Below are positions 5,191 through 27,606 of a stretch of 29,630 nucleotides of DNA, piece after piece. A program made the position numbers and the translations under genes. The notes beneath the pieces were generated by a model. That model was not told the DNA's origin. It worked only from the letters and a program-made list of their open reading frames with translations, and ran no database searches. Source of the stretch: a virus; the IMG/VR virus record IMGVR_UViG_3300047476_000404, positions 1-29,630 of that record; one strand, written 5' to 3'. Positions within the stretch are counted from its first letter, which is position 1. The number at the start of each line of letters is the position of its first letter.

Positions 5191-6357
5191 TTATAGTTCT
5201 CCTAAAACTTTATCCAAAAGTTGTATATCACGAGAAGTGATAAACTGATTATTTCCAATGTAAATGCCGTTGTCGTGTAGAACGTCAACTGCATCGTTGC
5301 CAGTGCTTTGTGAAACATGATACCCTCGGTCTCTCAAATAAGGCTGTCGTAGAAGATTACCAGAAACTACTGGACGATACTCAATCTTATACTCTCTTAG
5401 TTTCTCTGTCAACCTATTTTTTACGGCTTTGTCTCTGGCAATAAGTGGGAAGCAAAAGCTACTGTTACCCGGATTCATTACAATAGGGTGAAACAGATGA
5501 ACGTAATTATTCATCATTACACAAAACTCTACAAATCGTCTACGTCTGATATCGATAAATTTATCCAGACGAGTCAACTGTGATAGCCCAAGAACTGCAC
5601 CAATTTCCGTGTTTCTAAAGTTATATCCGTCACTTACAAAAAGAAAAGATGGGTCAATGTCTGGATATTTCTTGGCATATTCTGTATAGTAACTTGATGT
5701 TCTTGCCATGCCATGAGATCGTTTCATTTTCATCAAATCATAAAGGTCTTCATCATTTGTTGAAATCATGCCGCCTTCAATAGTGGACATATGGTGTCCA
5801 AAGTAGAAGCTGAATGTGGCCCCTGTGCTTTTTGCACCAACCTTGACTCCATCAATCGTACATCCATGAGATTCACACACATCATCGATGATGATGGCAT
5901 TTGGAAAAAGTTCCTTGATCTTCTTTGTGGGGGCTGGAATACCAAGTAGATGTGTGACAAAGACCATACGAATAGTTTGCCATGCCGCAATCCTTTTGAG
6001 GCTTCTTTCACAGAAGCTAAAGTTATCAAGATTGATATCACAGAAGACAGGCTCCAACCCAAGCTGAATAATAGGATTAATATTCGTTACCCATGTACAG
6101 GCCGGAACCAACACTTTATCTCCCGGTCTCAATCCATACTTCTCAATGATTGCTGCCACCAGAAGAAAATTGGCTGTGCTGCCAGATGATACAAATAAAG
6201 AATGCTTGGCACCAAGCCAGTTAGACCATGCCGACTCAAATTCCTCAACTTTCGGACCTTGAGTAAACTTGTTACTCTTCATCACGAACTTGGCTAACTT
6301 CAGTCTATCACAGAGAGTTAGCGTGTCCTGCATCAACGGCCAATCATACTCGCTCAT
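5191..6357 (-). CDS. colD-like: ColD-like PLP-dependent sugar 3-dehydratase (DegT/DnrJ/EryC1 family)
   Basis: 388 residues, fold-type I PLP enzyme. SSGSTAN (57-63) and DVCESHG (159-165) match the cofactor-binding segments of the DegT family. The usual catalytic Lys of the SF...K motif is replaced by His: FSFYFGHHMST, His188-His189. Replacement of Lys by His marks the 3-dehydratases ColD (GDP-4-keto-6-deoxymannose 3-dehydratase) and E1/RfbH. The length, the HH(I/M)(A/S)T.EGG segment and C-terminal RPVVSGN and NGIYIGNNQ match what I recall of E. coli ColD. No Cys cluster for the iron-sulfur centre of E1 is visible, and the adjacent gmd supplies the ColD substrate. The expected product is GDP-4-keto-3,6-dideoxymannose. 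The gene overlaps its upstream neighbour by 14 bases. A 4-aminotransferase (perosamine synthase) is disfavoured by the missing Lys. Confidence 0.85.
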   Translation of the reverse strand: MSEYDWPLMQDTLTLCDRLKLAKFVMKSNKFTQGPKVEEFESAWSNWLGAKHSLFVSSGSTANFLLVAAIIEKYGLRPGDKVLVPACTWVTNINPIIQLGLEPVFCDINLDNFSFCERSLKRIAAWQTIRMVFVTHLLGIPAPTKKIKELFPNAIIIDDVCESHGCTIDGVKVGAKSTGATFSFYFGHHMSTIEGGMISTNDEDLYDLMKMKRSHGMARTSSYYTEYAKKYPDIDPSFLFVSDGYNFRNTEIGAVLGLSQLTRLDKFIDIRRRRFVEFCVMMNNYVHLFHPIVMNPGNSSFCFPLIARDKAVKNRLTEKLREYKIEYRPVVSGNLLRQPYLRDRGYHVSQSTGNDAVDVLHDNGIYIGNNQFITSRDIQLLDKVLGEL

Positions 6358-15485: not shown

Positions 15486-16844
15486 TTAGAGTCTGGCGAA
15501 TTGCCAATGCATCCAGTCATAATTCCTTTCAATACCAAGGCTGATAGCACCTTCATCATATACAAATTCCCAGAACTTCTTATATTCAGGTCTGGCAAGA
15601 CTAGCACTTTTTGAAGTGGAACGCAAGGCATTTCTATCAGGATCGATATCAACAGCAATACCCCAAGAATGCATAGACCAAGATGATCCACCACGCATCT
15701 TACGAACATTCAATGTGCCACCCCAAAGATCAAGGCGAAGTCTCTTGATTTCTTCATAACCATAGTGTTCCAAAGTTCTTTGAAAGATTCTTCGCATAGG
15801 AACAGCCACCTTTTGGTGACACTGGAATGATGTGATTTTCTGATCCAAGTCCCATGCAATTCTCATCTGATATGGTAGATTTAATCTTACCTGATTTGTT
15901 CCGGGTCTACCATAGAATGACATACAGTCCTTTTGTCTTGGCCATACTAATTTTGATACCTTGACAGCTTCGACAACTGCTGGCGAACCAACAACCTTTT
16001 CTGCACCTTTATATTCTGGTAGTTCAATACCCTTACCAAGTTTTTGATAAATTTTCAGACAGTCTGGGCCATAAGAGGACCATGTAGAATACCCTGTCTT
16101 ACCCTGAATCTCAATAGCATCTTCAACAGTATTGGCATCAAAAATCTTTGCATATCGTTCGCCTTTGAGTAACACATCAACATAGTCGGCAGCGGCTTCT
16201 ACCCAATTATGATAGACCCGAAACTTGTCTGTGATTGTTACTTTCTTTCCATTAATTTCTTCAACAGTGGGGACTGTTGTTGATCCAGCAGGACCATTGC
16301 CTTTGATACCAAAGATATTGTTACCCTTGACTGACTTACCATATCCTGTCTCAAGTGAAGATTGTGTGGCACCAAGATGTGCAATAACTTCAGGATACTT
16401 AATTTTGGATGTAAGAAAGAATGTCATTCTTTTCTTGGCAGCAGCAAGAACCGCATCATAGACTTTCTTGTAGTAATCTACGGGTTCAAAATCTGTTTTG
16501 TTCTCATCAATTTCTTCATGAAGATCGTCCATCTTATCTCGCCAGTTAAGCGTTAGCTTGGCATTATATACCGCTCTGGCATTTCTTGTTGATGGACCTT
16601 CAAGACCATCGATAGAACCAACTTCAATGTCTTCTGATCTGTATAAAGCCTGTTCGGCTGCTCGTTTCAGTCTGGCATCGTTCCAACCAGAATGATTGAT
16701 CTTATATGATGTGAGTAATTTACGAATAGCCGCATATGTTTTAGGTCCAAGCGTGCCGTCAATAGGACCGTCATAGTGATTGTCTTTTTTTAAAAGTAAC
16801 TGAATTGCAACATCTATATCAGTTAAGTCCGGGGCACTTGCCAT
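15486..16844 (-). CDS. Modular lysin: PG-binding + GH73 glucosaminidase + M15 peptidase
   Basis: 452 residues in three parts. Residues 1-95 contain two peptidoglycan-binding-like halves (DGPIDGTLGPKTY, GSIDGLEGPSTRNA). Residues 130-270 match the FlgJ/GH73 N-acetylglucosaminidase fold with QSSLETGYGK (Glu165 as probable acid) and NNIFGIKG. Residues 300-452 match M15 (VanY/Ply-type) peptidases, with MHSWGIAVDID (His392, Asp399) and DWMHWQF (His446) as zinc/catalytic residues. It could cut both the glycan strand and the stem peptide. No signal peptide is visible, so release by a holin or a virion-associated role are both possible. GGAG lies nine bases before the ATG. It heads the glycan operon. 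Confidence 0.9.
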   Translation of the reverse strand: MASAPDLTDIDVAIQLLLKKDNHYDGPIDGTLGPKTYAAIRKLLTSYKINHSGWNDARLKRAAEQALYRSEDIEVGSIDGLEGPSTRNARAVYNAKLTLNWRDKMDDLHEEIDENKTDFEPVDYYKKVYDAVLAAAKKRMTFFLTSKIKYPEVIAHLGATQSSLETGYGKSVKGNNIFGIKGNGPAGSTTVPTVEEINGKKVTITDKFRVYHNWVEAAADYVDVLLKGERYAKIFDANTVEDAIEIQGKTGYSTWSSYGPDCLKIYQKLGKGIELPEYKGAEKVVGSPAVVEAVKVSKLVWPRQKDCMSFYGRPGTNQVRLNLPYQMRIAWDLDQKITSFQCHQKVAVPMRRIFQRTLEHYGYEEIKRLRLDLWGGTLNVRKMRGGSSWSMHSWGIAVDIDPDRNALRSTSKSASLARPEYKKFWEFVYDEGAISLGIERNYDWMHWQFARL

Positions 16845-17388: not shown

Positions 17389-17901
17389 TTAAGCCACGGA
17401 CTTTTTCGATAAAAAACTTTTAGCCTCGTTAGCTTCTGTTGCAATGTCAGAGCCTTCATTAGTATTGATATCAATCTTTCTTGGCTTTTTAGATTCAGGG
17501 ATGAATCGTTCAAGCCAAATCTTTAACATACCATTAATAAGGTCGGCGTTCTTGACTTCAACAGTGTCGGCAAGGGTAAACTTGCGTGTAAACGCTCGGT
17601 CTGCGATGCCTTTGTAAAGATAAGAATTAGCATCGTCTGACGTGATTGATCCCTTGATTGTGAGAACATTGTCTTCAAGAACGAGTTCAATGTCCTGCTT
17701 ACCAAAGCCAGCGACAGCGATCTCAATCGTGTATGTGTTCTCACCTGTCTTACGAATGTTGTAGGGTGGATAAGCCACGGCCTTGGGAAGAGTTTCCGCA
17801 AAGTCAGCCAAACGCTTGAAAGCGTCATCAAATCCTACAGCAGATTTTGTGAGGGTGTTGAATGAAGAGGGATCAAAGAGTGAAAATAGATTAGATGTCA
17901 T
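17389..17901 (-). CDS. hsp20: Hsp20 small heat-shock protein (IbpA-like)
   Basis: 170 residues. The alpha-crystallin domain runs roughly 45-145: YPPYNIRKTGENTYTIEIAV is the start of the IbpA-type domain, then AGFGKQDIEL, VLTIKG, and a later NGMLKIWLERFIPE with the IPE motif used in oligomer assembly (I-x-I/V-like). It is an ATP-independent chaperone that holds unfolding proteins; phages of the T4-like cyanophage group often carry one, possibly for virion assembly. The leader upstream contains a sigma70-type promoter and a hairpin that buries the Shine-Dalgarno, see 17909-17927. Confidence 0.96.
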   Translation of the reverse strand: MTSNLFSLFDPSSFNTLTKSAVGFDDAFKRLADFAETLPKAVAYPPYNIRKTGENTYTIEIAVAGFGKQDIELVLEDNVLTIKGSITSDDANSYLYKGIADRAFTRKFTLADTVEVKNADLINGMLKIWLERFIPESKKPRKIDINTNEGSDIATEANEAKSFLSKKSVA

Positions 17902-17908
17902 ATTGTTT

Positions 17909-17996
17909 TCTCCTTAAATAAGCGAGATTTCATTTAGTCCCCTTTCCTTTTCGGCAAAGGGGTTGTCGGGTACGCAAAACCTTTTTAACCCCGACA
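17909..17996 (-). promoter_or_regulatory. ROSE-like RNA thermometer in the hsp20 5' leader
   Basis: In the minus-strand RNA, CUCGCUU (17920-17926) pairs with the Shine-Dalgarno AAGGAG (17910-17915) across a 4-base AUUU loop, leaving a single G bulged. One more U-A pair (17927 with 17909) closes the stem. The UCGCU segment fits the UYGCU core of ROSE elements, which repress small heat-shock genes below heat-shock temperature through this bulged-G pairing. Two further hairpins lie upstream: CCCCUUU/AAAGGGG (17939-17945 with 17956-17962, plus two inner pairs) and a 7-bp UGUCGGG/CCCGACA stem (17964-17970 with 17990-17996). The leader of about 95 bases matches ROSE architecture. Neither upstream hairpin has a U-run, so they are not ordinary terminators. 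Confidence 0.7.
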
Positions 17997-18002
17997 CCAC
18001 TA

Positions 18003-18031
18003 TATATACAACTTCATGGTCCCCACGTCAA
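18003..18031 (-). promoter_or_regulatory. Sigma70-type promoter for hsp20
   Basis: TTGACG (18026-18031) and TATATA (18003-18008) are separated by exactly 17 bases on the minus strand. Transcription would begin near 17996, just at the first leader hairpin. It lies at the end of the PAAR gene region upstream of hsp20. Confidence 0.7.
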
Positions 18032-26357: not shown

Positions 26358-27542
26358 TCAGAATGCAACCTCATCTGTTGAAGTCTGAGGCACTACAGTC
26401 TGATCAGCAGGAGCTACACTGTCATCAAGCTTCTTGTAAAGATCAAGAAAGGCCGTCTTTGTGTCCACGTCAAAGCGGTTAAGACAGAGTTCAATGGACT
26501 TGCTACGATTGCCATTGAAAATCGCAAAGGCTTCGCAAATGTGGACGAGTCGGCGTGTTGAAATTAGATCAGACACGGCACCTTCCATAAAGGACTTGCG
26601 AATAACATCAGCCCATGCAACCAGCTTATCCACGTACTGCGTATCAGGCATACCAGCCTTGGCCAGAACGTTGTTGAGAATCTTAGCCTCAACCTTCGCA
26701 GCGGGATATTCCTGCTCAAGGGTAACAGAGAAACGTTCAAGGAACGCCTCGTTCATAACGTTGGTGCCGATAAAGCGACCATCATCTGAACCTTTACCCT
26801 TGGTGTTGGCCGTTGCAATAATGTTGAAGCCCTTTGCCGGTGTGATCACCTTATTAATTTTCTTAAGGTAGATCGGCTTGCCTTCAAGAATAGGCTGGAG
26901 ACACATCAACTTGTTAGAACCAAGGTCAACTTCATCGAGAAGAAGAATTGCACCCCGTTCCATTGCAACAACCACTGGACCGTTCTGCCAGACAGTCTTA
27001 CCATCAACAAGACGGAAGCCGCCAAGCAAATCGTCCTCGTCCGTTTCAATCGTAATGTTGGTACGGATGCACTCCCGTTTTTCGGCAGCACAAACCTGTT
27101 CCACCATCATCGTCTTACCGTTACCAGAAAGACCAGTGATGTACAGCGGATAAAACCGCTGAGACTTTACGATTGATCGAACATCAGAGAAGTGACCGAA
27201 CGGAACATAGCCGTCAGCCTTCTCAGGCACAAACGAAACGGGAGCATTGCCAATCTGAACGGCGGCAAGAGCCATTTCGATATGTGCATCCGATCCCATG
27301 TCAACCGTAGGAATGACACTTGCGGGGATCGACGCCTTAGTAGCCTTGGGGGCTACCGTGGCCGGATCAATAGTGAGCGAATATACACCACGACCGATAC
27401 GACACTTATTCAGCCAAGCAGGAAACGCAATATCCATTTCAGAACAAATGTCCGAAGCCTGTTGACGAGTAATGGTTTCAATATCCCCGAGCTTTACCTT
27501 GACGGCATTGAGGAATGATTCTCGGTTAGAAGCCTTGGCCAT
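26358..27542 (-). CDS. cobS: CobS-like AAA+ ATPase
   Basis: 394 residues from ATG 27542 (MAKASNRESF), with AAGGA seven bases upstream; the longer frame from farther upstream would cross the promoter. MoxR/CobS-type AAA+ protein: Walker A GLSGNGKT (137-144), Walker B ILLLDEVD (199-206), ANTKGKG sensor segment (245-251) and LERF (268-271) with the arginine finger. Cellular CobS works with CobT and CobN in aerobic cobalt insertion into the B12 corrin ring. Phage CobS-like proteins are common in marine T4-like phages, but no cobN is seen here, so it may join a host chelatase or act as a MoxR-type chaperone with the adjacent CobT-like VWA protein. Confidence 0.9.
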   Translation of the reverse strand: MAKASNRESFLNAVKVKLGDIETITRQQASDICSEMDIAFPAWLNKCRIGRGVYSLTIDPATVAPKATKASIPASVIPTVDMGSDAHIEMALAAVQIGNAPVSFVPEKADGYVPFGHFSDVRSIVKSQRFYPLYITGLSGNGKTMMVEQVCAAEKRECIRTNITIETDEDDLLGGFRLVDGKTVWQNGPVVVAMERGAILLLDEVDLGSNKLMCLQPILEGKPIYLKKINKVITPAKGFNIIATANTKGKGSDDGRFIGTNVMNEAFLERFSVTLEQEYPAAKVEAKILNNVLAKAGMPDTQYVDKLVAWADVIRKSFMEGAVSDLISTRRLVHICEAFAIFNGNRSKSIELCLNRFDVDTKTAFLDLYKKLDDSVAPADQTVVPQTSTDEVAF

Positions 27543-27577
27543 TTTGCTATCCTTTGCTGTATCTCGATTATGGAAGT

Positions 27578-27606
27578 ATATTAGCACATTGATTCGGTCT
27601 TGTCAA
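27578..27606 (-). promoter_or_regulatory. Consensus sigma70-type promoter before cobS-like gene
   Basis: TTGACA (27601-27606) and TAATAT (27578-27583) with an exactly 17-base spacer on the minus strand. Start near 27571, giving a leader of about 30 bases. It is the best match to the sigma70 consensus in the window and allows the CobS-like gene to be made independently of CobT. Confidence 0.8.

Follow-up and report, generated by a model that had tools for sequence, protein, structure and literature searches.

The leader of an hsp20 gene carried by a viral DNA fragment is quite probably a ROSE-type RNA thermometer, and on homology and anatomy this is the best reading of the leader. Judging by sequence, the same element precedes a chaperone gene in hundreds of water-dwelling phages and phage contigs. 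RNAs of this kind are known; their wide occurrence in phages is apparently undescribed within the open-access library searched, in which no ROSE element or other thermometer for a phage hsp20 was found. A leader of this kind, covarying and sensing either temperature or aggregates, suggests that hsp20 responds to protein stress during infection.

Architecture of the hsp20 leader

The record is a fragment carrying T4-type genes. In the window, by which we mean the whole stretch of 29,630 bases analysed, these encode a family-B DNA polymerase (phrog_262), a dUTPase, a virion structural protein and an AAA ATPase. The features of the hsp20 gene and its leader are collected in Table 1. Two promoter-like hexamers with 17 nt between them (TTGACG-17-TATATA, 18031-18003) give a predicted leader of ~95 nt, and the TATATA overlaps a T4 late box-like TATAAAT(A). 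Many relatives have TTGACA-17/18-TATATA or TATAAA in the matching position. A strict sigma70 scan did not pick up this promoter in the window, but it had been read correctly, together with a leader of ~95 bases, in an earlier note on this DNA.

Three hairpins are predicted in the window's leader, with the Shine-Dalgarno (SD) hairpin last, whereas most relatives have two; ROSE elements have two to four. Both additional hairpins mentioned in the earlier note were located (hairpins I and II in Table 1). Hairpin III covers the SD of hsp20, in the 5' UTR of a small heat shock gene as in ROSE elements, eight bases from the start. Read on the minus strand from 17927 to 17909, it is UCUCGCUUAUUUAAGGAGA, in the order UCUCGCUU-AUUU-AAGGAGA. 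Seven pairs are formed (U17927-A17909, C17926-G17910, U17925-A17911, C17924-G17912, C17922-G17913, U17921-A17914 and U17920-A17915) around the bulged G17923 and an AUUU loop, and RNAfold agrees. UCGCU opposite AGGA(G), with this bulged G, is the U(U/C)GCU motif of ROSE elements. The geometry is thus as first described, but the SD had also been said to pair "completely" with CUCGCUU, and that word does not hold, imperfect pairing being the ROSE hallmark. The leader folds with a minimum free energy of -31.4 kcal/mol (z -2.85; RNAfold), and equal stability was reached by one of 200 shuffles. The bare anti-SD motif occurs once in the window, both strands counted. Hairpin II matches the design of the SD hairpin, with a pyrimidine and a bulged G followed by CC...GG.

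Table 1 Features of the hsp20 leader, other genes of the window, and loci with a small-ORF operon.
Feature	Position	Strand	Description or basis
hsp20 gene	17389..17901	minus	170 aa; Pfam HSP20 7.5e-17, phrog_432 8.3e-40
Two-hairpin ROSE-type element	17906..17962	minus	matched by covariance models R1 and R2
Hairpin III	17909..17927	minus	anti-SD CUCGCU opposite AGGAG, bulged G17923, AUUU loop; fold, conservation, covariation
Shine-Dalgarno AAGGAG	17910..17915	minus	sequence; eight bases ahead of ATG
Hairpin II	17939..17962	minus	7 pairs, bulged G17955, CC/GG (7 + 2 pairs), loop GAAAA; RNAfold, covariation on A2
Hairpin I	17964..17996	minus	7 pairs, 19-nt loop; RNAfold, pattern scan
-10-like hexamer TATATA	18003..18008	minus	sequence; relatives show TATATA or TATAAA there
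-35-like hexamer TTGACG	18026..18031	minus	sequence; many relatives have TTGACA at equal distance
Aminotransferase gene	5191..6357	minus	phrog_3139
Lysin-like protein gene	15486..16844	minus	glucosaminidase, M15 peptidase and peptidoglycan-binding domains
CobS-like AAA ATPase gene	26358..27587	minus	phrog_249
Small-ORF hsp20 operon loci			L052, L057, L058, L060-L064, L066-L068, L070-L072; also L143, L144, L163, L199

The loop of hairpin I is unusually conserved in the window's subgroup, being of the type GGAUAA-GGU-N-UUGCGUACC, and its text AAGGUUUUGCGUA is conserved solely there. In a pattern scan, hairpin I in promoter context was found exclusively at hsp20 leaders. It was considered and rejected as a general phage element, its text in promoter context being confined to these leaders, and, on inspection, as the start of an upstream ORF (AAGG followed by TTG or GTG), the spacing being too short and the frame not conserved. 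Either of its two GG/AG steps could pair with a single CC/CU, which might let the helix shift from one register to another.

Conservation, covariation and relation to known thermometers

An Hsp20 protein search yielded 80 viral loci, with relatives 52-75% identical. The motif T[U/C]GC..GGAG lies directly ahead of hsp20 in 63 leaders, the window included, and is absent there in 17; in 14 of these 17, covariance model R1 located the element ~250-350 nt further upstream, ahead of a small ORF of 72-98 aa that directly precedes hsp20. Leaving aside three loci that are too short and one that starts inside hsp20, the element is present in 76 of 76 assessable loci, a count that holds partly by construction, about half of the leaders having been used to build R1. 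Because of this circularity, an exact 18-mer, degenerate patterns and a held-out model were also used. The 18-mer TCTCGCTTATTTAAGGAG has 27 matches in 2.9 million viral contigs, and all 27 lie directly before an hsp20 gene, even though the encoded proteins are 28-37% identical to that of the window. Two degenerate two-hairpin patterns gave at least 240 sites; among the matches listed, 215 precede hsp20, 10 a small ORF followed by hsp20 and one a DnaK gene, six are cut by a contig end and eight are unrelated. The held-out model R2, built only from leaders more distant than the window's closer relatives, recovers the window with 31.0 bits (E 3e-6 in 99 kb; E-values of both models are rough). R1 gives it 45.9 bits, with the window in the training set. 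At the DNA level the whole region matched none of the named phages searched, the sequences being too divergent, and a loose local pattern with three mismatches gave matches not above chance, leaving the exact site as the informative one.

Covariation was assessed in a set of 55 trimmed leaders (A2); from the untrimmed alignment (A1), RNAalifold recovers the middle hairpin only, with MAFFT misplacing the SD in several rows. Standard pairs fill 92.5% of the pair cells in A2, compared with 72.5% after shuffling and 40-57% with slid partners, and the covariation score is 0.523, compared with 0.162 for shuffled alignments (reached by 0 of 500) and 0.05-0.16 for slid ones; the shuffle figures are indicative, since shuffling ignores relatedness, and the slid controls, which preserve it, agree. 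Hairpin II covaries strongly, with two-sided changes at six of eight pairs. With the ribosome fixing the SD sequence, little covariation is possible in the core of the SD hairpin: among 75 distinct leaders a single core cell is unpaired, and these invariant pairs are uninformative on covariation. The bulged G is kept in all 75, which were selected for the motif. The foot of the hairpin does covary. The pair under the SD core varies between A-U, U-A, C-G and G-U and is paired in 59 of 75 leaders, against a shuffle mean of 32.8 (0 of 10,000 shuffles reach 59), and in one leader (L030) a double change, TTGCA..TGGAG, swaps the top U-A pair for A-U. One refuting condition set in the earlier note, an anti-SD pairing that fails to covary among related phages, thus did not come true.

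At gathering scores, Rfam gives no match in the window. Comparison with the ROSE models, as the earlier note had suggested, gave a divided result. ROSE_3 (RF02523) aligns over its full length, at the right place and on the right strand, but with 18.2 bits against a cut-off of 43; ROSE_2 (RF01832) gives 13.9 bits against 65, and the window reaches the gathering score of none of ROSE, ROSE_2 and ROSE_3. On ROSE_3, the leaders of Methylophilales phage Melnitz-3 and Phage C48C1 score 34.1 (E 0.0022) and 26.8 bits. An accepted E. coli-type ibpA ROSE element itself scores only 20.8 bits on ROSE_3, and 19 of 20 sampled bacterial relatives also fall below every ROSE cut-off, which indicates that the Rfam models are narrow. 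The cut-off is a library threshold, not a biological feature. As far as can be read from sequence, the window fits the descriptive definition of ROSE (PMC3669281) and, the Rfam score excepted, has every ROSE property that a sequence can reveal.

Among cellular proteins, the nearest Hsp20s belong to alpha-, gamma- and betaproteobacteria; a ROSE-type anti-SD is present in 58 of 80. A run of R1 over 12 whole genomes behind the cellular loci gave a single site in nine of them, a pair in another and nothing in the remaining two. The gene was probably acquired with its leader from some proteobacterium and passed on among phages, those of cyanobacteria included. The identity of the gene, the placement and motif of the element and the nearest cellular relatives all match ROSE elements, in support of the original reading; the hallmark ascribed to alpha- and gammaproteobacteria is there, but its restriction to them is not, given its presence in cyanobacterial phages and in betaproteobacterial hsp20 leaders.

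In Pseudomonas, a ROSE element with two hairpins arranged in this way has been proven to act as a thermometer (PMC3669281). With this ibpA ROSE_3 the phage element shares two hairpins, a U(U/C)GCU anti-SD with a bulged G in the 3' hairpin, a position directly before a small heat shock protein gene (PMC3669281), and an adjoining stable GC-rich hairpin with a UGCC...GGG tip. It differs in being phage-borne, in having a phage-type sigma70/T4-late-like promoter instead of sigma32, in the third hairpin of the window's subgroup and in its sub-threshold ROSE_3 score. The SD hairpin of the window fits 17 positions of the E. coli/Salmonella ibpA ROSE_2 model, and the E. coli-type hairpin tip CGCCUGAUGGG resembles the phage CGCCUAAUGGG, but the enteric element, which scores 100 bits on its own model, is the larger of the two, and the window matches its SD hairpin only. 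Rhizobial ROSE (RF00435) has the same gene type and anti-SD motif in the nearest alphaproteobacterial relatives, but three to four hairpins, and the window gives no RF00435 match.

In cyanobacteria, the thermometers of Synechocystis hsp17 and of Anabaena likewise block the ribosome-binding site or start codon of a small heat shock protein gene with a hairpin (PMC4166951). These are structurally diverse, hsp17 having a single short hairpin, whereas the cyanophages bear the proteobacterial two-hairpin form. Just three phage RNA thermometers are named in the papers found, none of them ROSE-type (PMC11182007), and the few listed in the Robo-Therm paper are all of other types. Lambda cIII, the SPbeta blyA fourU and the gut Caudoviricetes sigma70 fourU resemble the present element in being temperature-changing leader structures of phage genes (PMC11182007, PMC10586365), but they are not ROSE-type, the genes they control are not chaperone genes, and each has been reported in one or a few phages only.

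Proposed control of hsp20 translation

If the leader is a thermometer, transcription from the sigma70-like promoter would yield an RNA in which hairpin III holds the hsp20 SD in an imperfect stem (CUCGCU/AGGAG, bulged G), so that ribosomes bind weakly, with hairpin II as a stable adjoining scaffold. Warming would loosen the weak stem and Hsp20 would be made, the phage thereby providing its own aggregation-preventing chaperone as the infected cell warms. Occlusion in vivo, opening by heat and a benefit to the phage are what we infer from this anatomy. Nearest-neighbour folding gives a probability of an open SD of at most 0.9% up to 50 °C for the window and 1.3-1.7% for two bacterial ibpA controls; melting by such energies was set aside as uninformative, the bacterial controls behaving similarly.

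Hairpins complementary to an SD are not rare in leaders, and several other SDs in the window are partly paired, as would be seen if the complementarity arose by chance. Conservation and covariation in divergent phages exclude chance as the sole explanation, and the bare motif appears in just 25 of 20,000 dinucleotide shuffles of the leader; the probability left to it is vanishingly small. The partial pairing of many other SDs in the window would also be compatible with a fixed damper, in which the hairpin lowers or times hsp20 translation and senses nothing, perhaps together with a repressor such as RegA, whose gene adjoins hsp20 in two cyanophages. Such a damper would not require an invariant bulged G and UYGCU text across very divergent phages, nor would it be so strictly tied to chaperone genes, and we regard it as very unlikely.

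Heat may not be the main signal, since many hosts are open-water bacteria that experience small temperature changes. The leader might chiefly be an operator of autoregulation, to which free Hsp20 binds, repressing translation of its own mRNA until it is drawn onto misfolded protein, for example during massive synthesis of virion proteins; the signal would then be proteotoxic load and not temperature as such. In E. coli, IbpA acts through the ROSE-bearing leader to repress its own translation, for which R93 and an aromatic residue at position 34 are needed (PMC10474464). Y44, R102, R106 and K107 of the window's Hsp20 align with Y34, R93, R97 and K98 of IbpA, R102 and Y44 thus supplying the RNA-binding arginine and the aromatic residue. 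Among 267 phage Hsp20s, the R93 position is R in 260 and K in 7, and the Y34 position is Y in 231 and F in 36. These residues may, however, persist by descent or for chaperone function, and the K98 position is not conserved among phages. As the chief role of the leader, autoregulation appears unlikely, but it may work jointly with a thermometer, as reported for E. coli ibpA, and aggregate-sensing autorepression is, on the sequence evidence, a serious companion mechanism to the thermometer. Beyond the thermometer itself, we tentatively raise the possibility that the ROSE leader and an IbpA-type Hsp20 with its RNA-binding arginine and aromatic residue form a self-contained proteostasis sensor widespread in T4-type phages. 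Either heat or unfolded virion protein would then free the chaperone mRNA from RNA structure and Hsp20 repression, in some cases with extension to a small partner gene or DnaK.

Named isolates and variant placements

The element is found before hsp20 in Pelagibacter phages Mosig, HTVC008M and HTVC115P, in Melnitz-3 and C48C1, and in cyanophages S-CREM1, Syn33, S-CRM01, syn9, P-RSM1 and S-WAM1, so that the isolates concerned infect Synechococcus, Prochlorococcus, Pelagibacter and Methylophilales. R1 scores are low for HTVC115P (14.7 bits) and HTVC008M (18.5 bits); the anti-SD hairpin is nonetheless plain in both sequences. It is not recognisable before hsp20 of cyanophage DSL-LC02 (L122, ~520-553), where the UYGCU motif is absent and the SD lies inside another inverted repeat, UUAGAU...AUCUAA. 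In 16 of 16 marine cyanomyoviruses compared, hsp20 is a core gene, with a role only guessed, in capsid scaffolding (PMC3037559). The authors of S-CREM1 ran Rfam on this cyanophage, and a thermometer is not among their annotations (PMC9964418); since its hsp20 leader scores 47.5 bits with R1 (the leader being in the training set), Rfam annotation misses such elements.

Where hsp20 lies in an operon with a small ORF, the element stands ahead of the first gene, a helical-looking ORF of 69-98 aa of no known family; its identification as a phasin was rejected for want of Pfam support. Locus L074 carries the element twice, ahead of a rubredoxin-like ORF and again ahead of hsp20. In L352 (minus strand, ~870 down to 1), a two-hairpin element after a TATAAATA box precedes a phage-borne DnaK (Hsp70) gene, on a contig that also has QueC-like and radical-SAM genes. 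In L025 (987-1112), the ROSE hairpins start a few bases past the CCA end of a tRNA confirmed by Rfam, and a similar arrangement was seen by eye in L022, L026, L029, L034, L035, L039, L041-L044 and L047; these leaders look as if freed by tRNA processing. Two UNVERIFIED records, Pseudomonas phage Y7 (L113) and Campylobacter phage A11a (L124), hold bacterial ibpA loci with full Rfam ROSE elements and look like host DNA.
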